Assembly: GCF_001614315.2 (NCBI RefSeq)
Contig: NZ_LVEG02000009.1
Location: 1-64,000, forward strand
Direction of reading: 5' to 3'
Length of the DNA stretch: 64,000 nucleotides
DNA from: Halofilum ochraceum
GTDB lineage: Bacteria > Pseudomonadota > Gammaproteobacteria > XJ16 > Halofilaceae
The notes below the pieces were generated by a model. It was not told the origin of the DNA, made no database searches, and saw only the letters and a program-made list of their open reading frames with translations. Every line of letters begins with the position of its first letter. Within the stretch, counting starts at the first letter, position 1. The position numbers and the translations under genes were made by a program. Below are positions 11,279 through 40,711 of this stretch, piece by piece.

Positions 11279-13171
11279 ATGACTGATTGGACTCTCGACG
11301 AGGCTCGCCACGTCTACAACGTCGCCCACTGGGGGGCGGGTTATTTCGATGTCGACGCCGCCGGCCGCTCGGTCGTGTATCCGCGCCGCGACGGTCGCCC
11401 GGTCGTGCTCGCCGAACTGGCCGACGAAGCGCGGGCGGCGGCGCTTCCGTTGCCTGTGCTCGTGCGCTTCGTCGATATCCTGCATGACCGGGTCGACACG
11501 CTCTGCGATGCATTCGAGGGCGCGCGTCAACGCCACGGTTACGGCGGCGCGTATACCGCCGTCTATCCGATCAAGGTCAACCAGCAGCGCAGCGTGGTCG
11601 AGCACATCAAGCGCCCCGATGACCCGCGCGTCGGTCTCGAGGCCGGTAGCAAGCCCGAGCTGATGGCCGTGCTGGCACTGATGGAGGCACGCAATGGCGC
11701 CGTCATCTGCAACGGCTACAAGGATCGGGAGTATATCCGGCTCGCGTTGATCGGTGTGCGCCTTGGCCTGCGTGTACGGATCGTGGTCGAGCAGCCGTCG
11801 GAAGTGGGGCTGGTCGCTGAGGAGGCGGCCCGGCTCGGGGTTGAACCGAGCCTCGGCGTGCGTGTGCGCCTCGCGTCGATCGGGCATGGGCGCTGGCAGA
11901 ACACCGGCGGTGAAAAAGCCAAGTTCGGGCTGTCTGCCCAGCAGGTGATCGATATCGTTGAGCACCTGCGCGAGCGCGGAGCACTGCACTGGCTGCAACT
12001 GCTGCACTTCCATATGGGTTCGCAGGTCGCGAATCTGCGCGACATCGCCGCCGGCATGACCGAGGCGGCCCGCTACTATGCCGAACTGATCAGCCTGGGT
12101 GCGCCGCTGGAGGCCGTCGATGTCGGAGGGGGCCTGGCGGTCGATTATGATGGCTCGAACTCACGCGCCGATTTCTCAATGAACTACGCGATCGAACGTT
12201 ATGCCGATTGCGTCGTTGGTGAACTCGCGCGCGTCTGCAACGAGCGAGGTCTGGTCCACCCCGCGATTTATACTGAGGCGGGACGTGCCATGAGCGCTCA
12301 TCACGCGGTGTTGATTACGGACGTCATCGATACCGAACCGGTGCCGGCGGCAACGCCGGCCGCGCCTGATCCGGAAGCGGTCGTGCCGATGCATGACCTG
12401 TGGTCGCTCTATAGCGATCCGCCGGGTTCGATGGCCGAGCGCTATCAGGACGCCGGCCGCGCGCTCGCGGAAGTGCATGCGCTGTATACGGAAGGCCGGC
12501 TCCGACTCGCGGAACGGGCTGCCGCCGATCGGTTGTTTCTCGCAATATGCCACGATACCCGCGACCGTCTCGTACGCCGCCCGTACCGTGATGCTGAACT
12601 GCGGAGCACGCTGCAGGAGCGGCTGGCGACGAAATACTTCTGCAATTTCTCCGTGTTCCAGTCGATCCCCGATGTATGGGGCATCGGCCAGTTGTTCCCG
12701 ATCATGCCGCTGACGCGCCTCGACGAGCCGCCGGATACCGACGCGATCCTCGAGGATCTGACCTGCGATTCGGACGGTCATGTCGAGGAGTACGTCCACG
12801 GCGACGGCATCTTCAAGACGCTGCCGCTGCACGCGATCCGGCCCGGCGAGGATTACCTGCTCGGCGTCTTCCTGGTCGGCGCGTACCAGGAAATCCTCGG
12901 CGACCTGCATAACCTGTTCGGCGATACGCACTCGGTCAACGTCGAACTCACCGAAGACGGTGGCTGGCGTCTGGTCGATCCGGAGCGCGGCGACCGCGTC
13001 GACGAACTCCTTCGCTACGTCCACTTCGACCCGGATACGCTGCTGGCCCGGTTCCGCGAAAAAATGAGCCGCACCGACCTCGACAAGGAGCAGCGCGCCA
13101 GTCTACTGAGGGAACTGGAAGACGGACTCTCGGCCTATACGTATCTGCAGGGACGAGAGAACCACGAATGA
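11279..13171 (+). CDS. speA: Biosynthetic arginine decarboxylase
   Basis: A 630-residue PLP-dependent fold-III decarboxylase converting arginine to agmatine, the first step of one putrescine route. The PLP lysine lies in VYPIKVNQQ (about residue 99). The barrel continues through LEAGSKPELMAVL, KFGLS, LLHFHMGSQVANLRD and VDVGGGLAVDYDG. The C-terminal beta domain contains FCNFSVFQSIPDVWGIGQLFPIMPL, with the Cys of the second active-site half in LEDLTCDSDG. Length and order match E. coli SpeA (about 630-658 residues). The last four codons and the stop lie inside a tandem repeat of ACACGAATGG type, so the natural C-terminus may have been changed by the repeat. Confidence 0.95.
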   Translation: MTDWTLDEARHVYNVAHWGAGYFDVDAAGRSVVYPRRDGRPVVLAELADEARAAALPLPVLVRFVDILHDRVDTLCDAFEGARQRHGYGGAYTAVYPIKVNQQRSVVEHIKRPDDPRVGLEAGSKPELMAVLALMEARNGAVICNGYKDREYIRLALIGVRLGLRVRIVVEQPSEVGLVAEEAARLGVEPSLGVRVRLASIGHGRWQNTGGEKAKFGLSAQQVIDIVEHLRERGALHWLQLLHFHMGSQVANLRDIAAGMTEAARYYAELISLGAPLEAVDVGGGLAVDYDGSNSRADFSMNYAIERYADCVVGELARVCNERGLVHPAIYTEAGRAMSAHHAVLITDVIDTEPVPAATPAAPDPEAVVPMHDLWSLYSDPPGSMAERYQDAGRALAEVHALYTEGRLRLAERAAADRLFLAICHDTRDRLVRRPYRDAELRSTLQERLATKYFCNFSVFQSIPDVWGIGQLFPIMPLTRLDEPPDTDAILEDLTCDSDGHVEEYVHGDGIFKTLPLHAIRPGEDYLLGVFLVGAYQEILGDLHNLFGDTHSVNVELTEDGGWRLVDPERGDRVDELLRYVHFDPDTLLARFREKMSRTDLDKEQRASLLRELEDGLSAYTYLQGRENHE

Positions 13172-13530
13172 ACACGAATGGACACGAATGGACACGAATG
13201 GACACGAATGGCGCCCTGCAGAGTGAACGCACGGTGGAGCTTCGCTGTCAGTATGGCGGTATGAAGCAGGTCATTCAGGAACCACAGATGGACACAGATG
13301 AACACAGCCGGGCTCAGTGGGAGGTCTTGTCTCTTATGGAGCTTCGCTGAAAGCGTTTTTGGCCAATACAGGTCCGAAGCTGTGCGGAAGCCACGAGGCG
13401 ATGGATTCCGGGCTATCTGTGTTTATCTGTGTCCATCTGTGGTTATTCTCTCCTCGGGTTCAGCGAAGCTCCCCGGAGCCCAAACCAACCCAAAACACCA
13501 TTTGTGTGCATTCGTGTTCATTCGTGGTTC
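13161..13530. repeat. Concentric inverted-repeat locus (CACGAATG and CACAGATG families)
   Basis: This fills the 394-base gap between speA and the hydrolase gene. The outer arms are 13161-13211, a 10-base tandem unit (ACACGAATGG, about four copies after a first AACACGAATG), and its inverse at 13499-13530. The inner arms are 13281-13307 (unit GGACACAGATG) and the inverse at 13412-13444. A shorter motif, GGAGCTTCGCTG, occurs at about 13231 and 13338 and inverted at about 13460. No gene is seen inside. The left outer arm overlaps the stop codon of speA. Confidence 0.85.
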
Positions 13531-32103: not shown

Positions 32104-32233
32104 GAGGTTGCTCCGTGCGTGCAGCGCATCACTCTAAACCTGCTTGCGCGAAAGGCAAGGGCCGCAGTGCCTGTGGCGCATGCGGGGCGTTACACTGCCG
32201 ACGCCGCGACCAGGCGATCAAACGGGGACCAGC

Positions 32234-33349
32234 ATGACCGACGACGCCATAACGGCCGCAGCAGACCCCGGCGCGGATTTCGCCCGGCGCGTGCTGGAGT
32301 GGTACGACCGTCACGGACGCCATGACCTGCCGTGGCAGTGCCCGGCGACGCCGTATCGCGTCTGGATCTCCGAGATCATGCTCCAGCAGACCCGCGTCGA
32401 GACGGTGCGCGGTTATTTCGACCGCTTCATGCAGCGCTTCCCGGACGTCGCGAGCCTCGCCGCGGCGGATATCGACGAGGTGCTGGGTCTGTGGTCCGGG
32501 CTCGGCTACTACGCCCGCGCCCGCAATCTCCACCGCGCCGCGCGCGCCATGGTCGCGGAACACGGTGGCGAGGTGCCGGAGGACCCGGAGGCCCTGAACG
32601 CGCTCCCGGGCATCGGCCGGTCCACCGCCGGCGCCATCCTCAGCCTGGGCCACGGCCGCCATCACGCCATCCTCGATGGCAACGTCAAACGCGTCCTCGC
32701 GCGTCACGCAGGCATCGAGGGCTGGCCCGGGCGGGCCCCGGTGCAGCGTGCGCTCTGGGCGGTCGCCGAGGACCGGACACCCGGGGAGCGCACGGCGGCC
32801 TACAACCAGGCGATGATGGACCTGGGGGCCATGGTGTGTCTGCGCCGACCGGTGTGCGACGCCTGTCCGGTCGCGGCCGACTGCAGCGCCCGGAACGAGG
32901 GTCGCACCGCCGAAATCCCGGCCGCGAAACCGAAACGCGAAATTCCGCAGCGCGAGACCGTCGCGCTCGTGATCCAGCGGGGCGATGACGGCGCGATCCT
33001 GCTCGAGCGGCGCCCGCCCAGCGGCATCTGGGGCGGGCTCTGGTCACTGCCGGAGTTCAACGCCGAAGCGGAACTGGAGGCCTGGGTCGCCGCCCGACTC
33101 GGCGACGTCGAGATCGAGCCGCTCGCGCCCGTCGAGCACACGTTCACGCATTTCCGCCTGCGCATCCATCCGCGGCGGGTCCATCTCCACGGGGGCGTGG
33201 ATCCGGTCCGCGAGGGTGCGGATTACGGCTGGTACCTGCCCGATGACGCGCCCGGCGGCCTGCCCGCGCCCATCCGCCGCCTCGCGGATCGCCTCGGTGG
33301 AGCGCCGCACACGGCCGATTTACCCGGAATCAACTCGCATGCGGGTTGA
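32234..33349 (+). CDS. mutY: A/G-specific adenine glycosylase MutY
   Basis: A 371-residue base-excision repair enzyme removing adenine mispaired with 8-oxoguanine. The catalytic Glu is in VWISEIMLQQTRVETV. The helix-hairpin-helix is LNALPGIGRSTAGAIL, followed by HHAILDGNVKRVLAR with the catalytic Asp. The 4Fe-4S cluster cysteines are in CLRRPVCDACPVAADC (C-x6-C-x2-C-x5-C). The C-terminal NUDIX-like domain (ALVIQRGDDGAILLERRPPSGIWGGLWSLPEF) reads 8-oxoG. The ATG at 32234 is chosen for family length. Confidence 0.96.
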   Translation: MTDDAITAAADPGADFARRVLEWYDRHGRHDLPWQCPATPYRVWISEIMLQQTRVETVRGYFDRFMQRFPDVASLAAADIDEVLGLWSGLGYYARARNLHRAARAMVAEHGGEVPEDPEALNALPGIGRSTAGAILSLGHGRHHAILDGNVKRVLARHAGIEGWPGRAPVQRALWAVAEDRTPGERTAAYNQAMMDLGAMVCLRRPVCDACPVAADCSARNEGRTAEIPAAKPKREIPQRETVALVIQRGDDGAILLERRPPSGIWGGLWSLPEFNAEAELEAWVAARLGDVEIEPLAPVEHTFTHFRLRIHPRRVHLHGGVDPVREGADYGWYLPDDAPGGLPAPIRRLADRLGGAPHTADLPGINSHAG

Positions 33350-33416
33350 CGCCGCCGCGCGCGGCCGGTGTAATACGCGCCTTCGGACCGGGCCGTTACC
33401 CGGAACCCGCCTCAAT

Positions 33417-33492
33417 GGCCAGGTAGCTCAGTCGGTAGAGCACGCGACTGAAAATCGCGGTGTCGGCAGTTCGATTCTGTCCCTGGCCACCA
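33417..33492 (+). tRNA. tRNA-Phe (anticodon GAA)
   Basis: A 76-base gene: acceptor GGCCAGG/CCTGGCC, D-arm GCTCAGTCGGTAGAGC, anticodon stem GCGA/TCGC with loop CTGAAAA (anticodon GAA), T-arm GGCAGTTCGATTCTGTC, and an encoded CCA. It marks the left edge of a region with mixed base composition. Confidence 0.97.
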
Positions 33493-33853
33493 TTTTCCTT
33501 GTCTGTCATCCGTTGTGGGGTTCGGAGCGCTTCTCCCCCAACGTCCGAGCCATCGGCGGATGCGCCACAAGGCGAATGGTGCCAAGTCCGGTCTCCTGCC
33601 ACTTCGAATCGCGAGATCCATTCCCGGAGTAGCCTACAGCTAACGGCCTCGACCGCCTGGCTGCCGATTACGAAGCCATTGCACGTCTCCTCTGTAATGG
33701 TCACGCGGGGGCGCCCCGTTCTCCAATAAATCACAGGGCACCAGCAGGTCCTTTTCCCGTCGACCGCTACCTATTCCTGGCCGCCGGTTTTCTGGGCCGC
33801 AAATTGGACGTCATGCAGGTAGGAGAGCACATCAGCGCCTGGAATCCGCCTTG
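33493..33853. other. Gene-free stretch next to tRNA-Phe
   Basis: About 360 bases with no convincing gene. Open frames here are short or run through the tRNA. The base composition is lower in GC than the neighbourhood. A stretch at about 33778-33796 loosely resembles the tRNA 3' end but with several differences. Confidence 0.5.
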
Positions 33854-34114
33854 ATGTCCATTGGCCGGTGCAACTCTTGGATTTCCGAGAGTAACCAGCA
33901 CATTCCCGAATCCTTGACCTCAGTGGTTTTTGGGTCGATTAACGCTCTTGCGCAGCTTGGGCATATCGAGCGGCGCGCGGACGAGCCGGCGGAATACTCC
34001 CTTGTAGTGGACGGCCAGTCCGTCCGATTTATGCGATACGTAGATTTAGAGCGGAATGTCGAGGATTGCGCAGCGCAAGCCCTGAAACGGCTTCGAGACG
34101 AAGGCCACGTGTGA
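33854..34114 (+). CDS. Small hypothetical protein
   Basis: An 86-residue open frame from the ATG at 33854. I do not recognise it. The second half is protein-like and charged (ADEPAEYSLVVDGQSVRFMRYVDLERNVEDCAAQALKRLRDEGHV), with a plausible beta-hairpin then an amphipathic helix. There is no strong ribosome-binding site. Its codon use is less GC-rich than in neighbouring genes, as in the adjoining GntR gene. It may be a fragment of an acquired gene or not a gene at all. Confidence 0.35.
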   Translation: MSIGRCNSWISESNQHIPESLTSVVFGSINALAQLGHIERRADEPAEYSLVVDGQSVRFMRYVDLERNVEDCAAQALKRLRDEGHV

Positions 34115-34181
34115 ATATCGGTGGGGGCGTCGAAACTGCCCGCGGGGACTGGGACTACCAATGAATCGGCGTAATCCATCA

Positions 34182-34823
34182 TCACTTTGGTTCATGAAAG
34201 CGAATATTCTCCCGCACCAGCGATTCAGCCAGCGTCCCGTTGCCATCGCGAATCGCTTTGATGAGGGCTCTATGCGATTCAGCGATTACCTGCGCGGATA
34301 CACGCTGATTAGACATCGAGATATACATCCGAAACTGGTTTGCAACACGGTTATAGTGTTCGATCAGTCGAGAATTCCCGGATCCGTTCATTATTAACGC
34401 ATGAAGCTCAAAATCCAGACGACTCGCTGTACCGTGTTCGTCGCGCGCCGCCGCCTCAAGGATCCGGTCGAAAGCCTCGCCCAACCTTATTACGCCGTCC
34501 TCGGTAAGATTCTCGGCCGCCAGTCTGGCCCCCAAACCTTCAAGCGTGCTTCTTAGGGTCCCTATCTCCCAGATGTCATGCGCACTGAATTCGTAGACCC
34601 GATACCCGGAGTAGGGTACGTGGCAAACGAGGCCTTCATCGATTAACCGTCGGAGTGCTACACGGACCGTGCCTCGCGAGATGCCAAACTCGGCGGCCGC
34701 CTCGCTCTCAAGCAGTCGCTCACCGACCTTGATGTTTCCTTCAACAATCCGCCGCCGGAGGATTGATGTTGCCTGTTCTTCCAGGCTTTCTCGGCTGGGC
34801 TTTTCTCGCTCGTAAATTGTCAT
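34182..34823 (-). CDS. GntR-family regulator, FadR subfamily (FCD domain)
   Basis: A 213-residue regulator. The N-terminal winged helix (EEQATSILRRRIVEGNIKVGERLLESEAAAEFGISRGTVRVALRRLIDEGLV) is typical GntR. The C-terminal FCD ligand domain has LRSTLEGLGARLAAENLTED, DFELHALIMNGSGNSRL (Asp and His of the usual metal site) and ESHRALIKAIRDGNG with a further His. Such proteins generally repress a nearby catabolic operon until a carboxylate ligand binds. It sits downstream of the aldehyde dehydrogenase on the same strand. GC content is clearly lower than in the flanking housekeeping genes. A palindrome at 37601-37628 is its likely operator. Confidence 0.85.
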   Translation of the reverse strand: MTIYEREKPSRESLEEQATSILRRRIVEGNIKVGERLLESEAAAEFGISRGTVRVALRRLIDEGLVCHVPYSGYRVYEFSAHDIWEIGTLRSTLEGLGARLAAENLTEDGVIRLGEAFDRILEAAARDEHGTASRLDFELHALIMNGSGNSRLIEHYNRVANQFRMYISMSNQRVSAQVIAESHRALIKAIRDGNGTLAESLVRENIRFHEPK

Positions 34824-34931
34824 CGGTTGCCTTTAGGGCTTCGCCGTCAAGTCACGCGGCCCACCAGTCCTTTCGAGCGGAAATTTGGCCACGCTGGCAG
34901 CAATTATAACCACTGCCAGCGCTGTGGCTCA

Positions 34932-36452
34932 TCACAACTGAATCCAGGCCGATTTGCCCTGGGTGTACTCCAACAGGCTCTCGAAGCACTTGTCGCGTGA
35001 GTTGCCGGACTGTTTCCAGCCGCCGAACGGCTGCGTCATGTCGCCGTCATCGAACGTGTTGACCCAGATCGTTCCGGCCTCGAGATCCCGGACGCAGCGA
35101 TGGCCCCGGCTTAAATCCGAGGTCCATACGCCGGCGGCCAGCCCGTAGATCGTGTCGTTCGCGATACGGATGGCCTCCTCTTCGGAATCGAAGGGCATGA
35201 TCGCGGCAACGGGCGCGAACAGTTCTTCGCGCGCGATGGTCATGTCCGGGCGCACGTCCGCATACGCCGTCGGCTCCACATACGCGCCCCCGGTGAGCGA
35301 TTCGCTCGCCGTCTCACCGAAGATCTTCTTCGCCCCTTCGTGTTCCGCGCCCTCCATCATGCCGACGACGCGATCGCGCGCGCTGCGGTCGACGAGAGGG
35401 CCACAGCGGACCCCGGGGTCGAGCGGATCGCCCGGTACATAGCGACCGGCGGCCCGCTCGCGGAATTTCTCGATGAACCGATCGTAGATCGAGCGCTCGA
35501 CGAGCAGGCGCGAACCCGCGTTGCAGACCTCGCCCATGTTGACGAAGATCCCGTCGATCGCCGCATCGACCGCGGTATCGAGATCCGGCAGATCCGCGAA
35601 GAACAGCTGCGGGCTTTTGCCCCCGCATTCCAGGGCGAGCTTCTTCATGTTGGAGTCGCCCGCCGCGCGCAGCAGTTCCTTGCCCACGGCCGCGGAGCCC
35701 GTGAAACTGACCTTGTCGACATCCGCGTGTTCGCCGAGCGCCTTGCCGGCCTCCTCGCCAACCCCCGAAATCACGTTCAGCGCCCCGGCGGGGCCGCCCG
35801 CCTCGCGCAACAGGTCCGCGGCGCGAAGCACGCTCAGCGAGGCCTCTTCGGCGGGCTTGAGCACGACACAGTTGCCGGCCGCCAGCGCCGGCGCGATCTT
35901 CCACATCGCCATCATCAACGGGTAGTTCCAGGGCGAAATCGCCCCGACCACGCCGATGGGCTGACGCAGCGTGTAGTGGAGCACGCTGTCATCGGTCGCG
36001 GTCGTCGTGCCGGTCACCTTGTCGATGGACTCGGCGAAGAACCGGATCGTCGTCAGGACCTCGGGCATGTCGTACTCGACCATGTCCGCGATGGGGCGTC
36101 CCATCTCAATGGTATCGAGCGCGCTGAACTCGGAGGCGGCCGCTTCGATGCGGTCCGCCCAGTCGAACATGATCCGCGCGCGCTCGCGCGGTGATTTGCG
36201 ACCCCAGACACCATTGGCGTGGGCCCTCCGGGCGGCCCGGACGGCATGGTCGATGTCGGCTCGGCCGCCGCGGGCGATCGACGCGACCTTTTTTCCGTCA
36301 GCGGGATTGACCGAGTCGATCGTGTCGCCGGATTCGGCGGCCCGCCGTTCGCCGTCAACGAACATGCGGCCATCGATCTCCAGCCGCCCCACGAAGCCGG
36401 TCCAGTCCTCGCGGGTCCATGTGCCCGCCTCGCTCAGATTCATTCCACTCAT
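34932..36452 (-). CDS. NAD(P)-dependent aldehyde dehydrogenase (PuuC-like)
   Basis: A 506-residue aldehyde dehydrogenase. The catalytic Glu is in KLALECGGKSPQLFF and the catalytic Cys in FVNMGEVCNAGSRLLVERSIYD. The cofactor region has PWNYPLMMAMWKIAPALAAGNCVVLKPAE and SFTGSAAVGKELL. The C-terminus carries PFGGWKQSGNSRDKCFESLLEYTQGKSAWI, close to gamma-glutamyl-aminobutyraldehyde/PuuC-type enzymes. The usual CxxG is GEVCNAG. The substrate is unknown. It lies 52 bases after the beta-hydroxyacid dehydrogenase gene on the same strand, so a substrate that is first an alcohol and then an aldehyde is plausible. Confidence 0.88.
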   Translation of the reverse strand: MSGMNLSEAGTWTREDWTGFVGRLEIDGRMFVDGERRAAESGDTIDSVNPADGKKVASIARGGRADIDHAVRAARRAHANGVWGRKSPRERARIMFDWADRIEAAASEFSALDTIEMGRPIADMVEYDMPEVLTTIRFFAESIDKVTGTTTATDDSVLHYTLRQPIGVVGAISPWNYPLMMAMWKIAPALAAGNCVVLKPAEEASLSVLRAADLLREAGGPAGALNVISGVGEEAGKALGEHADVDKVSFTGSAAVGKELLRAAGDSNMKKLALECGGKSPQLFFADLPDLDTAVDAAIDGIFVNMGEVCNAGSRLLVERSIYDRFIEKFRERAAGRYVPGDPLDPGVRCGPLVDRSARDRVVGMMEGAEHEGAKKIFGETASESLTGGAYVEPTAYADVRPDMTIAREELFAPVAAIMPFDSEEEAIRIANDTIYGLAAGVWTSDLSRGHRCVRDLEAGTIWVNTFDDGDMTQPFGGWKQSGNSRDKCFESLLEYTQGKSAWIQL

Positions 36453-36504
36453 ATATCTGCCTACTCCGATTGCCTGTGCACTGCCCGCGCGGATCGCCGC
36501 GGCT

Positions 36505-37452
36505 TTACGGCGTCACCTCGCGCCCCGGCTCCTCGGGCTCGTCATCCACCAGATCGGCGGGGAATCCCGGGGCCCGCAGGCTCACGCCGCAGTCGTCCTC
36601 GAGTTTGCGGACCACCATCGGCGACCACGCCCGGTCGCCGTAGCGCTCCTGCGCGTCGATGAACTGCTTCTGGACGGTCTGCGCGACCTCGGTCGACACC
36701 CCGTTGCGTTCGGCCAGTCCACCGAAGATGCCGATGTCTTTGAGCACGAGATCGAGCGTGAAATTGATGTCGTAGCTGCCGTTGAGGATGATCTGGCTCT
36801 CCGTCTCGTGGACGAACGAGTTGCCCGACGACGCCTTGATCGCCTCATAGGTCGTGGCCATGTCCATGCCCGCCTTCTTCGCGACCACCCACGCCTCGCC
36901 GAGCGCGGCCAGGTGCACCGAGGCCAGATAGTTGGTGATCACCTTCAGTACCGATGCGCTGCCGACCGGCCCCGTGTGCAGGATGCGCCGCCCCATGCAC
37001 TGCAGCACGGGGAAGGCGCGGTCGAAGGCCTCGCGTTCGCCGCCGACGAAGATCGAGATGTTGCCCGTGGCGGCGCGGTGACAGCCGCCCGAAACCGGCG
37101 AGTCGAGCGCCAGCGCCCCGGTCGCGGCGACCCGCTCCGAGAGGCGCACGATCTCCGCCTCCTCGGTGGTACTCATCTCCATCCAGATTTTGCCGGCCGA
37201 CAGGCCCTCGAGCACGCCATTCTCGCCCTCCATGACCGACGCGCTCGCGGCGGGAGACGGCAGGCAGGTGATCACGATGTCGGATCCCCGGGCCAGCTCC
37301 ACGGGCGTATCGGCCCATTTCGCGCCGCCCTCGAGCAGCTCCGCGGCCGCTCCCCGATCCAGTTCGTGGACGGTCAGGTCGAACCCGTTACGCAGGACAC
37401 TGCCCGCGAGCTTGCCACCGACATTGCCCAGCCCGATCACGCCGATTTTCAT
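36505..37452 (-). CDS. Beta-hydroxyacid (3-hydroxyisobutyrate-type) dehydrogenase
   Basis: A 315-residue NAD-binding oxidoreductase of the 3-hydroxyisobutyrate/6-phosphogluconate dehydrogenase family. The Rossmann motif is IGVIGLGNVGGKLAGSVLRNG. An acidic residue after strand two (VHELDRG) favours NAD. The substrate site is DSPVSGGCHRAATGNISIFVGG and the catalytic Lys is in SVLKVITNYLASVHLAALGEAW. The C-terminal tail (about 295-315) is an acidic extension. It is the first gene of a minus-strand operon with the aldehyde dehydrogenase, facing the ProX-like gene across a palindromic operator. Confidence 0.85.
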   Translation of the reverse strand: MKIGVIGLGNVGGKLAGSVLRNGFDLTVHELDRGAAAELLEGGAKWADTPVELARGSDIVITCLPSPAASASVMEGENGVLEGLSAGKIWMEMSTTEEAEIVRLSERVAATGALALDSPVSGGCHRAATGNISIFVGGEREAFDRAFPVLQCMGRRILHTGPVGSASVLKVITNYLASVHLAALGEAWVVAKKAGMDMATTYEAIKASSGNSFVHETESQIILNGSYDINFTLDLVLKDIGIFGGLAERNGVSTEVAQTVQKQFIDAQERYGDRAWSPMVVRKLEDDCGVSLRAPGFPADLVDDEPEEPGREVTP

Positions 37453-37600
37453 GAACTCCCCTTTTTATGTGCGCCAAAAGTGACGAACTCGACCGCAAAC
37501 GAGTCCGAGAAGCCTGAAGTCTCCTGCGCGGGCTCCAAAGCTGGATGTATCCGCAGCAGACAGGACAGCCAGGCTGGATACGCTATTGCTCGTGCTTGGG

Positions 37601-37628
37601 AGGTGTCAACCGTTGACAGTTGACACCT
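37601..37628. promoter_or_regulatory. Palindromic operator between the divergent catabolic and binding-protein genes
   Basis: Arms AGGTGTCAAC (37601-37610) and GTTGACACCT (37619-37628) are exact reverse complements. A second perfect palindrome, TGTCAACCGTTGACA, at 37604-37618 overlaps it. It lies about 150 bases from the dehydrogenase start and 117 from the ProX-like start, in the right place to control both. The GntR regulator encoded 3 kb away is the best candidate ligand. Confidence 0.75.
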
Positions 37629-37744
37629 GATTACCGCCTGTTTAGCGTAGATACGGACACCTTGGCCGGCGTCGACAACGCACTGCGCTTACGCCGAGAG
37701 GTGTATGAAAACGACGAACACATCCGAATAAATAGGGGCGCAAG

Positions 37745-38734
37745 ATGAAGAACCTCGTGCACGCTGCGACAGCGGCCGTTCTCACCCTGTCTATCTCTCC
37801 AATCGCTTACTCTGCTGACGCTGAAGAACTCGCGGCGGATTACGACTGCTCCACAGTACGCTTTGGACAACCGTCCTGGACTGGGGTGAAAGTCAAGACC
37901 GCTGCGGCGACGTGGATACTCGAAAACCTCGATTACGAAACAGAGACGACCACGGCGTCCCTGGCGATCAGCTATAAGGCGATGGAAGGCGGCGACATCG
38001 ACACCATGCTCTCCCAGTGGTTCCCATCTGCGCGACAGATGTTCCGCCCGTTTGGAATCAAGGGATCTCTCGACATGGTCTCGCCGAACCTTACCGGCGG
38101 GACATACACGGTCGCTGTTCCTTCCTACGTCTATGAGGCCGGCGTAACCAGCATCGAAGACCTTGATCAACACCGTGATAAATTTGGCGGAGAAATTTAC
38201 GGCATCGATCCGGGAAGCACCGGCAATGATACCGTCAAGGCAATGATTGAAGACGACTATGCCGGCCTCGGCGACTGGGAGCTTGTCCCATCAAGCGAAC
38301 CCGGAATGCTGGCCGAGGTTGGAAAACGGACTGGCGACAAGGAATGGATCGCGTTCCTCGCATGGTCCCCCCATCCAATGAACATCAATTACGACATCAA
38401 ATATCTGTCCGACGGCGCAAAATACTGGGGTCCTAACAAGGGCGAAGTCATTGTGCAGACCGTCACGCAGGAAGGTTTCGCATGGGCCTGTACCAACGTA
38501 GGCCAGTTCCTCGATAATTATGAATGGACCGTTGAAGAACAAAGTCTCGGTATGAACTACGTGCGGAATGAGGGCATGGAGCCGCTCGCTGCCGCCAAGA
38601 AAGTGATTCGTCAGAATCCGGATATGGTCAGCCGGTGGCTCGATCGTAGTGGGATTTACCAAACCGGCGGGATCACCCGGATGGATGGCTCGGGTGACAG
38701 TGAAGCGATTATCAGGGACGCCCTGAATCTTTAA
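37745..38734 (+). CDS. Betaine/choline-type ABC substrate-binding protein (ProX/OpuAC family)
   Basis: A 329-residue periplasmic binding protein. The signal peptide ends near SPIAYSADA (residue 24-26). The OpuAC family pattern is VRFGQPSWTGVKVKTAAATWILENLDYE, MEGGDIDTMLSQWFPSARQ, GGTYTVAVPSYVYEAGV and YGIDPGSTGND, with aromatic residues (W45, W90, Y117, W205-type) able to form a cation-pi cage around a quaternary amine. No permease or ATPase genes are adjacent, so it must work with a distant ABC system or another partner. Its GC content and codon choice are lower than in nearby housekeeping genes. A terminator follows. Confidence 0.85.
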   Translation: MKNLVHAATAAVLTLSISPIAYSADAEELAADYDCSTVRFGQPSWTGVKVKTAAATWILENLDYETETTTASLAISYKAMEGGDIDTMLSQWFPSARQMFRPFGIKGSLDMVSPNLTGGTYTVAVPSYVYEAGVTSIEDLDQHRDKFGGEIYGIDPGSTGNDTVKAMIEDDYAGLGDWELVPSSEPGMLAEVGKRTGDKEWIAFLAWSPHPMNINYDIKYLSDGAKYWGPNKGEVIVQTVTQEGFAWACTNVGQFLDNYEWTVEEQSLGMNYVRNEGMEPLAAAKKVIRQNPDMVSRWLDRSGIYQTGGITRMDGSGDSEAIIRDALNL

Positions 38735-38761
38735 CTGTCACCTTGTTGTCTCGTGATCCGC

Positions 38762-38796
38762 ACGGCCCCGGCATGATTGTCGGGGCCGTTTTCTTT
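38762..38796 (+). terminator. Terminator of the ProX-like gene
   Basis: ACGGCCCCG (38762-38770) pairs with CGGGGCCGT (38781-38789), followed by TTTTCTTT. It lies 28 bases after the stop codon. Confidence 0.92.
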
Positions 38797-39328
38797 GAAT
38801 GCAGGCGGAAATGGGATCAGCTCCGCCATCTGCATGCCGGCGAACCTGGAGCTATTTCTTAATTCATTGATGGTGACCATTCCCGAGATTCTTTGGCGAA
38901 GAGTAATCCCCCCGTTTCCAGGTGGTGCGAGAAGCGGAACTCGTGCAATCGGCCGAAGGTTAGGCGGAGACGCTCTACATTCTTGATCGCTGGACAATTA
39001 GACGCCCATGGCGAACGTGATTACCGATTGCACCCGTGTGTCGAGCCGGAGAATCCTGAATCGGCCTCGCTCCACTGGGCTGACCGTCTCGGACGAGCGT
39101 TCGATCCAACGTCCGATGCCGGGGCGCCTTCGGTATTGGAAGCTCAGCGACGCATGCATGCCGGATCGATGGGTCCGGAAGGCCCGGGAAAACGCGCTGG
39201 TCCTGGGCGTAACCGCGTTGTCCGCTCTTTTATTCTCCCCGCGGACTCCGCGACTCTGCGAGAAACGCCTTTCTTATCAAGCCTTCCCACGCCCAACAAC
39301 GACTCGCCCAGGGGGAACGGGGTAGCGC
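38797..39328. other. Gene-free stretch between the ProX-like gene and thrC
   Basis: About 530 bases without a supportable gene; all frames are short and unlike known proteins. Near 39231-39272 a stretch (CGCGGACTCCGCGACTCTGCGAGAA) resembles the right arm of family C repeats, without a clear left partner. This may be the right boundary of the acquired segment. Confidence 0.5.
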
Positions 39329-40711
39329 TCAGGCTTGGGTTTCTTCCAACAGCAGATCCCGCAATGCGCCCGCGTCCGCCGCATGGTGGCGGTAGCGTTC
39401 CGGGGCCTCCATGACCGCTTCCAGCAGTTCCGGTCGCGGCGGCTCGTGTCCGGTCGCCTTTCGAGAGGCGTCCGGGAACTTGGCCGGATGCGCGGTCGCG
39501 GCGACCACGACCGGGCCTTCGAGGTCGAGCGTGCGCGCTGCGTGTGCGGCCGTGGCGGTGTGCGGGCAGAGCATCTCGCCGGTTTCCCGCCAGGTACGGG
39601 CCATTTCTTCCAGCGCCTCGGCCTCGGTGCAACGCACCGCGGAGAAGCGCTCGCGCAGGCGGCCAAGCGTTTCGGTGTCGACGTCGAACGCGCGGTCCTC
39701 GGTGAGCGCGCGCTGCCATTCGGTGACGGCCGTCGTGTCGCCTTCCGCGGCGAACCAGAGGGCGCGCTCGAAGTTGCTGGAGACCTGGATGTCCATGCTC
39801 GGCGAGATCGTCTGCCGGGTCTCGCGCCGCTCCATGCGGCCGGTCTCGAAAAAGCGCGGCAGAACATCGTTGTCGTTCGAGGACAGGACCAGGCGGCCGA
39901 CCGGGAAACCGAGCCGGCGGGCGACATCGGCGGCCAGGATGTTGCCGAAGTTGCCGGTCGGGACGATGTAATTGACCGGCCCGCCGCCGCCCAGGCGCAG
40001 GGACGACCAGATGTAATACGCCACCTGGCAGGTGATGCGTGCCCAGTTGATCGAGTTGACCGCCGTCAGGTTCAGCGCTGCCGCCTCCGGGTCGACGAAC
40101 AGCGCCTTGACCATGGCCTGACAGTCGTCGAAATCGCCGTCGATCGCGAAGTTGGCGACGTTGGCGTGGGGCAGGGTGGTCATCTGGCGGCGCTGCACCT
40201 CGGATACCCGGCCTGCCGGGTGCAGTACGACGACCGAGATGTTCTCGCGCCCGGCGAAGGCGGCCGCGGCGGCGGCGCCCGTGTCGCCTGAGGTGGCGCA
40301 GATGACGGTCGCGTGCCGGCCCTCGCGCTTCAACTGCTGCTCGATCAGCTCGCCGACGAACTGCAGGGCGTAGTCCTTGAAGGCCAGCGTCGGCCCGTGG
40401 AACAGCTCCAGGAGCCAACGGTCCTGATCCAGCTGTTTGTGTGGCGCGATTGCGGGATGGGTGAATGCACTGAGTGCCCGGTCGACGCTCGCGGCGACCG
40501 CGGCGGGTTCAATGTCCGGCGCGGCAAATCGGGCGATGATGTCACGCGCGACGGTGGCGTAATCGGCACCGACGAAGTCCGACCGCGTGGACGCCGCGAG
40601 CGGCTCGATCCGCTCGGGCACGAACAGACCGCCGTCGGGGGCAAGGCCGGCGAGCAGGGTGGCGGCGAAGCCATGACTCGTGCCGTCACCGCGCGTGCTG
40701 TGATATTTCAT
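39329..40711 (-). CDS. thrC: Threonine synthase
   Basis: A 460-residue PLP enzyme converting O-phosphohomoserine to threonine. The N-terminus KYHSTRGDGTSHGFAATLLAGLAPDGGLFVPE is diagnostic. The PLP Lys is in HGPTLAFKDYALQFVGELIE. The phosphate loop is TSGDTGAAAAAAF, and NSINWARITCQVAYYIWSSLRLG and VPTGNFGNILAADVARRLG are typical of the long form (group II) found in proteobacteria. Hom and thrB are not adjacent in this window. The start is the ATG at 40711. Confidence 0.96.
   Translation of the reverse strand: MKYHSTRGDGTSHGFAATLLAGLAPDGGLFVPERIEPLAASTRSDFVGADYATVARDIIARFAAPDIEPAAVAASVDRALSAFTHPAIAPHKQLDQDRWLLELFHGPTLAFKDYALQFVGELIEQQLKREGRHATVICATSGDTGAAAAAAFAGRENISVVVLHPAGRVSEVQRRQMTTLPHANVANFAIDGDFDDCQAMVKALFVDPEAAALNLTAVNSINWARITCQVAYYIWSSLRLGGGGPVNYIVPTGNFGNILAADVARRLGFPVGRLVLSSNDNDVLPRFFETGRMERRETRQTISPSMDIQVSSNFERALWFAAEGDTTAVTEWQRALTEDRAFDVDTETLGRLRERFSAVRCTEAEALEEMARTWRETGEMLCPHTATAAHAARTLDLEGPVVVAATAHPAKFPDASRKATGHEPPRPELLEAVMEAPERYRHHAADAGALRDLLLEETQA

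Follow-up and report, generated by a model that had tools for sequence, protein, structure and literature searches.

What does an orphan binding protein catch, and for which enzymes, when its gene shares a short interval with two dehydrogenases and a regulator and with no permease? The question is raised by a cassette in the first 64,000 nucleotides of contig NZ_LVEG02000009.1 of Halofilum ochraceum—this whole stretch is here called the window, the organism's own genome (3.64 Mb) is G000, and two other genomes of the genus are G001 and G002. Beside a tRNA-Phe lie genes for a GntR/FCD regulator, an aldehyde dehydrogenase (ALDH), a 3-hydroxyisobutyrate dehydrogenase-like protein (HIBADH) and a ProX/OpuAC-type substrate-binding protein (SBP); these assignments of a preliminary description, made from the letters of the DNA, are confirmed by ARAGORN, Rfam and Pfam. 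On balance we think it probable that the cassette serves as the arm for uptake and oxidation in a catabolic regulon acting on trimethylammonium compounds (quaternary amines), with a second arm on another contig of the genome, C14. Quaternary amines are a large store of carbon and nitrogen in saline waters, and to our knowledge few routes for their breakdown have been worked out. If true, the reading supplies named genes, a candidate operator and a partner locus coding a TmpA/TmpB-related pair of oxygenases with altered substrate-binding residues—a pair whose substrate could then be sought directly—and makes the orphan binding protein the mark of a catabolic cassette whose permease is coded elsewhere.

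Two loci and a rare element

The cassette is arranged around a divergent promoter gap of 292 bp. On the minus strand lie the genes for HIBADH (36505–37452; Pfam NAD_binding_2 and NAD_binding_11), ALDH (34932–36452; Pfam Aldedh) and the regulator (34182–34823; Pfam GntR and FCD), and on the plus strand the SBP gene (37745–38734; Pfam OpuAC). The spacing is 52 bp from HIBADH to ALDH and 108 bp from ALDH to GntR, so that a single minus-strand transcript is possible. The gap holds an operator-like palindrome with 10-bp arms, AGGTGTCAAC-N8-GTTGACACCT (37601–37628), within which lies the element TGTCAAC-N8-GTTGACA.

The closest relative of the SBP in G000 is a paralogue (68%) at C14, accompanied by genes for a TauD-type 2-oxoglutarate dioxygenase, a LysR regulator, a class II aldolase-like protein, a GntR regulator (54% to that of the window), an HD-domain protein and an EamA transporter; the locus is syntenic with G001:C3. 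The gap between its HD and SBP genes carries TGTCAAC-N15-RTTGACA. We scanned eight whole genomes (G000, G001, G002, those of the loci L007, L008, L011 and L056 introduced below, and that of an Ilumatobacter) for TGTCAAC-N6-16-RTTGACA: G000 has it only at 37604–37625 of the window and at C14:64225–64253, and G001 only at the orthologous C3:33587–33615; from base composition, 0.05 occurrences per genome would be expected on one strand. These three sites also served to define the pattern, which leaves its rarity as the only independent argument. The reversed pattern, as a control, occurs in none of the eight genomes. Control by one regulator, as originally proposed for the cassette, is plausible, the divergent-promoter palindrome recurring at the paralogous GntR locus.

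Relatives of the HIBADH link the cassette with the same families in other genomes. A tree built from 81 rows places the window protein with Ilumatobacter L014 and with L007, L008 and L011 at 100/97, and the G002 protein joins this clade next (89/92, short of the tool's star). Four of the five other members of the six-member clade adjoin TauD and HD genes: L007, L008 and L011 in the set HD–HIBADH–GntR–TauD, with GntRs at 51–54% to that of the window, and G002 in the set MR_MLE–HIBADH–ALDH–LysR–TauD–HD. In Ilumatobacter the HIBADH–ALDH pair recurs (HIBADH 71%, ALDH 67%). An 11-kb stretch of a Halomonas metagenome-assembled genome (L056) combines HIBADH, ALDH and LysR–HD–TauD with a full OpuA/OpuB-type importer (two BPD_transp_1, ABC+CBS, OpuAC), which lies between HIBADH–ALDH and the TauD/HD genes.

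The families also co-occur at the level of genomes. Among 369 genomes of the class, HIBADH is matched in 16 (E ≤ 1e-80), HD in 27 (E ≤ 1e-30) and both in 10, that is, HD is present in 10/16 genomes with HIBADH vs 17/353 without it (Fisher p = 4.5e-9). The association persists when the genus itself is left out (p = 2.3e-7) and when families are counted (5/9; p about 3e-4 to 6e-4, assuming 180–200 families). HD matches are likewise found in 36 of 50 HIBADH-bearing genomes (50/69 of the genome_contigs set)—marine alphaproteobacteria make up most of these 50, and lifestyle could account for some of the overlap.

Several observations weigh against the two-locus reading, beginning with the limit just placed on the element. 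The pattern is absent from the G002, L007, L008, L011 and L056 genomes, and the one copy in Ilumatobacter is unrelated; we dropped it as support, its contig having no DNA similarity to the HIBADH locus. TauD and HD lie near HIBADH in only 4 of 69 genome_contigs loci (L007, L008, L011 and L056), many Rhodobacterales copies of HIBADH sit among other genes, and a window-type SBP adjoins HIBADH in none of the 74 other loci compared. Neither HIBADH nor ALDH scores above an NCBIfam equivalog cut-off, and the SBP, discussed below, points to a ligand class rather than to a named compound. A TauD match lies no more than about 1.5 kb from the HD gene in 5/29 loci of the class and 3/30 genome_contigs loci, and slightly farther away in five more (L162, L163, L239, L240 and L241); the HD family being mostly without a nearby TauD, a marine lifestyle common to both may explain part of its co-occurrence with HIBADH. 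A literature search, with most subscription papers outside its reach, found no paper on a HIBADH with a TmpA/TmpB-like pair.

Substrate class and competing explanations

The nearest PDB structure to the C14 TauD is TmpA (214 bits), with gamma-butyrobetaine dioxygenase (BBOX) at 106. The protein keeps the iron and 2-oxoglutarate ligands H196, D198, H337 and R349 at BBOX positions 202, 204, 347 and 360, which we take to be the 2-His-1-Asp iron site and the 2-oxoglutarate arginine. Both acid-binding asparagines (presumably N191/N292 in BBOX; N193/N292 in TmpA) are replaced, by D185 and S283. A trimethylammonium cage of F171, F175, Y188 and Y355 (F/F/Y/Y) is present, with the same letters as the cage of bacterial BBOX to which it would correspond, given as Phe184, Phe188, Tyr201 and Tyr368 in PMC4736438, which also has two asparagines binding the acid group. 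The HD protein of C14 matches PhnZ/TmpB only. It keeps the metal motif H...HD...H...H...D that PMC8177086 describes for HD oxygenases (H56, H80-D81, H91, H113/H114 and D153, invariant in 7/7 sequences); the YxxE loop of PhnZ/TmpB is replaced by L46..Y49 (LxGY), again invariant in 7/7.

These likenesses raise a first alternative, namely that the C14 pair runs the known TmpA/TmpB pathway and makes glycine betaine and phosphate from 2-(trimethylammonio)ethylphosphonate (TMAEP), as the pair of Leisingera caerulea does according to PMC8177086 and PMC10574752; the window would then add a second TMAEP binder and side enzymes. The closest structure and the exclusive PhnZ/TmpB matches agree with this, TMAEP is itself a trimethylammonium compound, and the best NCBIfam model of the window GntR is a phosphonate regulator, albeit far below its cut-off (92.6/271.5). 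The score of the C14 TauD for the TmpA model NF049936, 354.7, can be read both ways, as a match and as one below the cut-off of 400; that of the G002 TauD (323.2) is below it too. The HD protein falls much further short (39.2/300 for TmpB, NF049941; 46/214.6 for TIGR03276) and lacks the YxxE loop, the asparagines common to TmpA and BBOX are D and S, TmpA and TmpB require no dehydrogenases, and a different TauD of G000, at C4 (L201), does pass the TmpA cut-off. With these defining features failing, we rank the TMAEP pathway proper as a rival, and an unlikely one.

Two further observations concern the TauD and HD families. At the L201 locus (G000:C4, about 441–445 kb), genes for a GbdR-like AraC regulator, an aminotransferase and a thiamine pyrophosphate (TPP) enzyme accompany a second TauD/HD pair; the TauD of this pair scores 403.2/400 for TmpA, and its HD is far below cut-off (28.4/214.6 for TIGR03276). 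A carnitine reading, with TauD as BBOX and HIBADH as carnitine dehydrogenase, is not favoured, the C14 TauD reaching 242.7/414.75 for TIGR02409.

The SBP is nearest to the choline ABC binding proteins of NCBIfam (309.1 bits, below the cut-off of 379.05) and aligns with ChoX over residues 34–304 (200 bits). ChoX residues W43, W90, Y119 and W205 are all kept, as W45, W92, Y121 and W207; D45, N156 and D157 are replaced by G47, S158 and T159. The four aromatics hold choline in ChoX, and D45 and N156–D157 have roles as well, according to PMC8371380. Glycine stands for D45 in all ten SBPs aligned from the genus, so this change is not specific to the window protein; serine at ChoX position 156, among the seven closest SBPs, is found only in the window, C14 and C3 proteins. 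Taken together, the residues favour as ligand a trimethylammonium compound whose head group differs from that of choline. The quaternary-amine solute named in the preliminary description thus stands as the best guess, since the SBP keeps the ChoX aromatics and the nearest HIBADHs sit beside TauDs that keep the trimethylammonium cage.

Ordinary choline or betaine uptake for salt tolerance is the second alternative—the SBP would be one of several osmoprotectant binders and the dehydrogenases unrelated to it. The genus is rich in choline/betaine-type binders, with SBP relatives (E ≤ 1e-20) numbering seven in G000, ten in G001 and two in G002. Another SBP adjoins a BADH-like ALDH on C4, and the lack of any other SBP–HIBADH neighbourhood, noted above, also suits this explanation. 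It does not account for the rare element common to the window SBP and the C14 SBP/HD locus, nor for the G, S and T at the three ChoX positions that serve the choline tail (the first of them shared by all ten aligned SBPs), and we consider it doubtful.

The preliminary description had remarked on a missing ABC permease, and indeed no ABC permease or ATPase lies within the cassette; a candidate exists elsewhere. Near 525 kb of G000:C4 there is an SBP-less ATPase/permease pair (ATPase 66%, permease 71% to a choline-type pair of G002), with an equivalent pair at G001:C49, and no SBP match was found in the fetched stretch around either of them (15 kb for G000:C4). By analogy with the Cbc system discussed below, the G000:C4 pair is a candidate to stand in for the absent permease.

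Like the 3-hydroxyisobutyrate, L-threonate and tartronate-semialdehyde reductases, the window HIBADH is a two-domain beta-hydroxyacid dehydrogenase with the motifs GxGxxG (at 7), SGG (at 121) and Lys/Asn (Lys170, Asn174); unlike them, it scores below every equivalog cut-off (TIGR01692 158.9/291.6; L-threonate dehydrogenase 186.9/350; tartronate semialdehyde reductase 176.6/397) and belongs to a well-separated clade of its own, in contexts of quaternary-amine type. The ALDH, which is PuuC/KauB-like, has Glu275 and Cys310 in the usual motifs, reaches 526 bits for the NCBIfam PuuC model (cut-off 850) and has KauB (6b4r) among its PDB matches. The 69 HIBADH loci of the genome_contigs scan come mostly from marine alpha- and gammaproteobacteria, with some from Actinomycetota and Desulfobacterota; their recurrent neighbours—MR_MLE enolase-type dehydratases, MTTB methyltransferases, GMC oxidoreductase, ALDH, a DmdA-like demethylase and corrinoid proteins—point to methylated amines. 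A third alternative, a carbohydrate-acid or branched-chain route (threonate, tartronate, 3-hydroxyisobutyrate or sulfolactaldehyde) in which the SBP is a chance neighbour within a composite island, would fit the names of the best HIBADH models, the MR_MLE neighbours and the difference in composition between ALDH/HIBADH and SBP/GntR, but is quite improbable given that all of these models are well under cut-off, that GntR, TauD and HD accompany the closest HIBADH relatives, and that others adjoin MTTB, GMC oxidoreductase and transporters of the OpuA type, a setting typical of quaternary amines.

Fourteen plasmid records, from Ruegeria, Ensifer and other hosts, also carry HIBADH relatives (46–61%); three of the plasmids are predicted to be conjugative.

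The proposed route and its known counterparts

In the two-locus regulon that we favour, the orphan periplasmic SBP would catch the compound and deliver it to an ATPase/permease pair that is shared and encoded elsewhere, and HIBADH and ALDH, coded divergently from the SBP, would oxidise the compound or an intermediate. The GntR/FCD protein would act on the palindrome of the HIBADH/SBP gap; from the same element and the paralogous GntR and SBP we infer co-regulation of the C14 locus, whose dioxygenase and HD protein probably act on the same class of compound. The earlier proposal of a self-contained pathway, taking one molecule from alcohol to aldehyde to acid, is not supported on either count—the cassette looks like one arm of a regulon with two loci.

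Parts of this arrangement have described counterparts. With the ChoXWV importer the SBP shares its alignment and the four aromatic binding residues; it differs in the replaced D45, N156 and D157 and in having no adjoining ATPase or permease. In comparison with the caiX-cdhCAB/Cbc system of Pseudomonas aeruginosa, a GntR/FCD protein, a HIBADH-like enzyme and an ALDH take the place of CdhR (an AraC-type protein), carnitine dehydrogenase and its partners, and the SBP gene is divergent from the enzyme genes instead of sharing an operon with them. Common to both are an orphan SBP of the ChoX/OpuAC kind with catabolic dehydrogenases and a regulator of its own, and an SBP-less permease core elsewhere in the genome (the G000:C4 pair here); according to PMC5806209, the P. 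aeruginosa core, CbcWV, is coded apart and serves several SBPs including CaiX. C14 resembles TmpA/TmpB in pairing a TauD-type dioxygenase that has a trimethylammonium cage with an HD protein, and differs in the two cut-offs, the loop and the asparagines described above; HIBADH, ALDH, GntR and SBP are additional here.

A far more specific proposal, to which we assign only a very slight chance, is that the two loci form an undescribed route, in which HIBADH and ALDH shorten a trimethylammonium hydroxy acid to a betaine and TauD and HD cut a C–C bond of this betaine to give glycine betaine, in parallel to the C–P cut made by TmpA/TmpB. The algal betaine lipid DGTA, whose head group is 3-hydroxyisobutyrate carrying a trimethylammonium group, would be a fitting source. 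HIBADH, with loss of CO2, would yield 3-trimethylaminopropionaldehyde, which ALDH would convert to the carboxylate counterpart of TMAEP, beta-alanine betaine; TauD would then form the 2-hydroxy acid, and HD would release glycine betaine. On this proposal, a change from phosphonate to carboxylate would explain why the YxxE loop is lost and the asparagines are replaced.

Composition and position of the cassette

The mixed composition ascribed to the cassette is evident by three measures. GC content is 0.545 for GntR and 0.552 for SBP, vs 0.663 for ALDH and 0.675 for HIBADH (window 0.661); GC at third codon positions (GC3) is 0.58 and 0.64 vs 0.85 and 0.90, respectively. Ranked by codon usage with the least native first, GntR is 6th, SBP 16th, ALDH 126th and HIBADH 157th of 173 frames, in a pool from the window and ten other G000 stretches called with a simple script and including some false frames. 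With GntR and SBP atypical and ALDH and HIBADH native-like, the cassette is composite rather than a single foreign block. The gene-poor stretches that bound it, 689 bp on the tRNA-Phe/GntR side and 594 bp on the SBP/thrC side, have GC contents of 0.583 and 0.591.

The cassette occupies the interval between tRNA-Phe(GAA) (33417–33492, plus strand, by ARAGORN; 33417–33489 by Rfam) and thrC (39329–40711, minus strand, Pfam; 90% in G001). To the left lies mutY (32144–33349, plus strand; Pfam HhH-GPD and NUDIX_4), a conserved flank whose orthologue adjoins tRNA-Phe in G001 (84%) and G002 (64%). Comparison of this site among relatives, as the preliminary description had suggested, gives differing contents: in G002 the tRNA is followed by AraC-type and methyltransferase-like frames (named by reading, without a family search), and in G001 it is separated from thrC by other genes over about 22 kb. 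The tRNA-Phe/thrC interval is thus a variable site within the genus. HIBADH is matched (E ≤ 1e-40) in 5 of 56 related genomes, one of which (G053) has a second, distant match; G001 has no match at this threshold, and in G002 the gene is at another place. The preliminary description would have been contradicted by a cassette of native codon usage found at one fixed place throughout the relatives; the place varies, but the codon use of ALDH and HIBADH is native-like. A variable or acquired position of the cassette is plausible from these comparisons.

Proof of a tRNA-integrated genomic island was sought without success: although occupancy differs among relatives, no second copy of the tRNA-Phe 3' end (last 16–30 nt, 3–9 mismatches allowed) is found within the window, exact matches shared by the borders reach 11 nt at most, taken as chance, and no integrase is among the cassette genes assigned by Pfam. 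In G001, a complete and identical tRNA-Phe closes the thrC contig, and the mutY contig starts one base beyond that tRNA. This is most simply explained by a single tRNA-Phe on two overlapping contigs, and less simply by a second copy. The G001 interval (G001:C21, about 22.9–45.0 kb; L140, L154) holds a Tn7-like set, with TniQ and an rve/Mu-type transposase, together with a type I restriction system and Abi_2, KwaB-like and Ter-like proteins.

Smaller features complete the locus. For the low-GC small frame of the preliminary description (33832–34185, minus strand, 117 aa), Pfam and NCBIfam gave no match and none of 75 loci holds a relative at E ≤ 1e-15; we reject it as a credible gene. In a six-frame reading, two overlapping plus-strand frames at 33633–34114 weakly resemble a single frame-shifted, decayed coding remnant; this has no match in G001 or G002 DNA, and its 3' part none in plasmids or Pfam. 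An inverted repeat with perfect 9-bp arms and a 12-nt spacer lies in the GntR–ALDH gap (34892–34921). A sigma-70 promoter scan of 33400–39400 found 0 vs a mean of 1.9 in shuffles. A terminator-like hairpin of 12 pairs with a T-rich tail lies 3' of the SBP gene (38762–38789, plus strand); as a class such hairpins are near the shuffled mean (6 found vs 4.4). Elsewhere in the window, a sequence of 34–37 bp at 13158–13195 recurs twice, inverted and 97–100% identical, on C14 (L141 14967–15256), and looks like a small dispersed inverted-repeat element; positions 1509–1560 match G001:C23 (L147 10845–10896) over 52 bp at 98%, far above the surrounding similarity.

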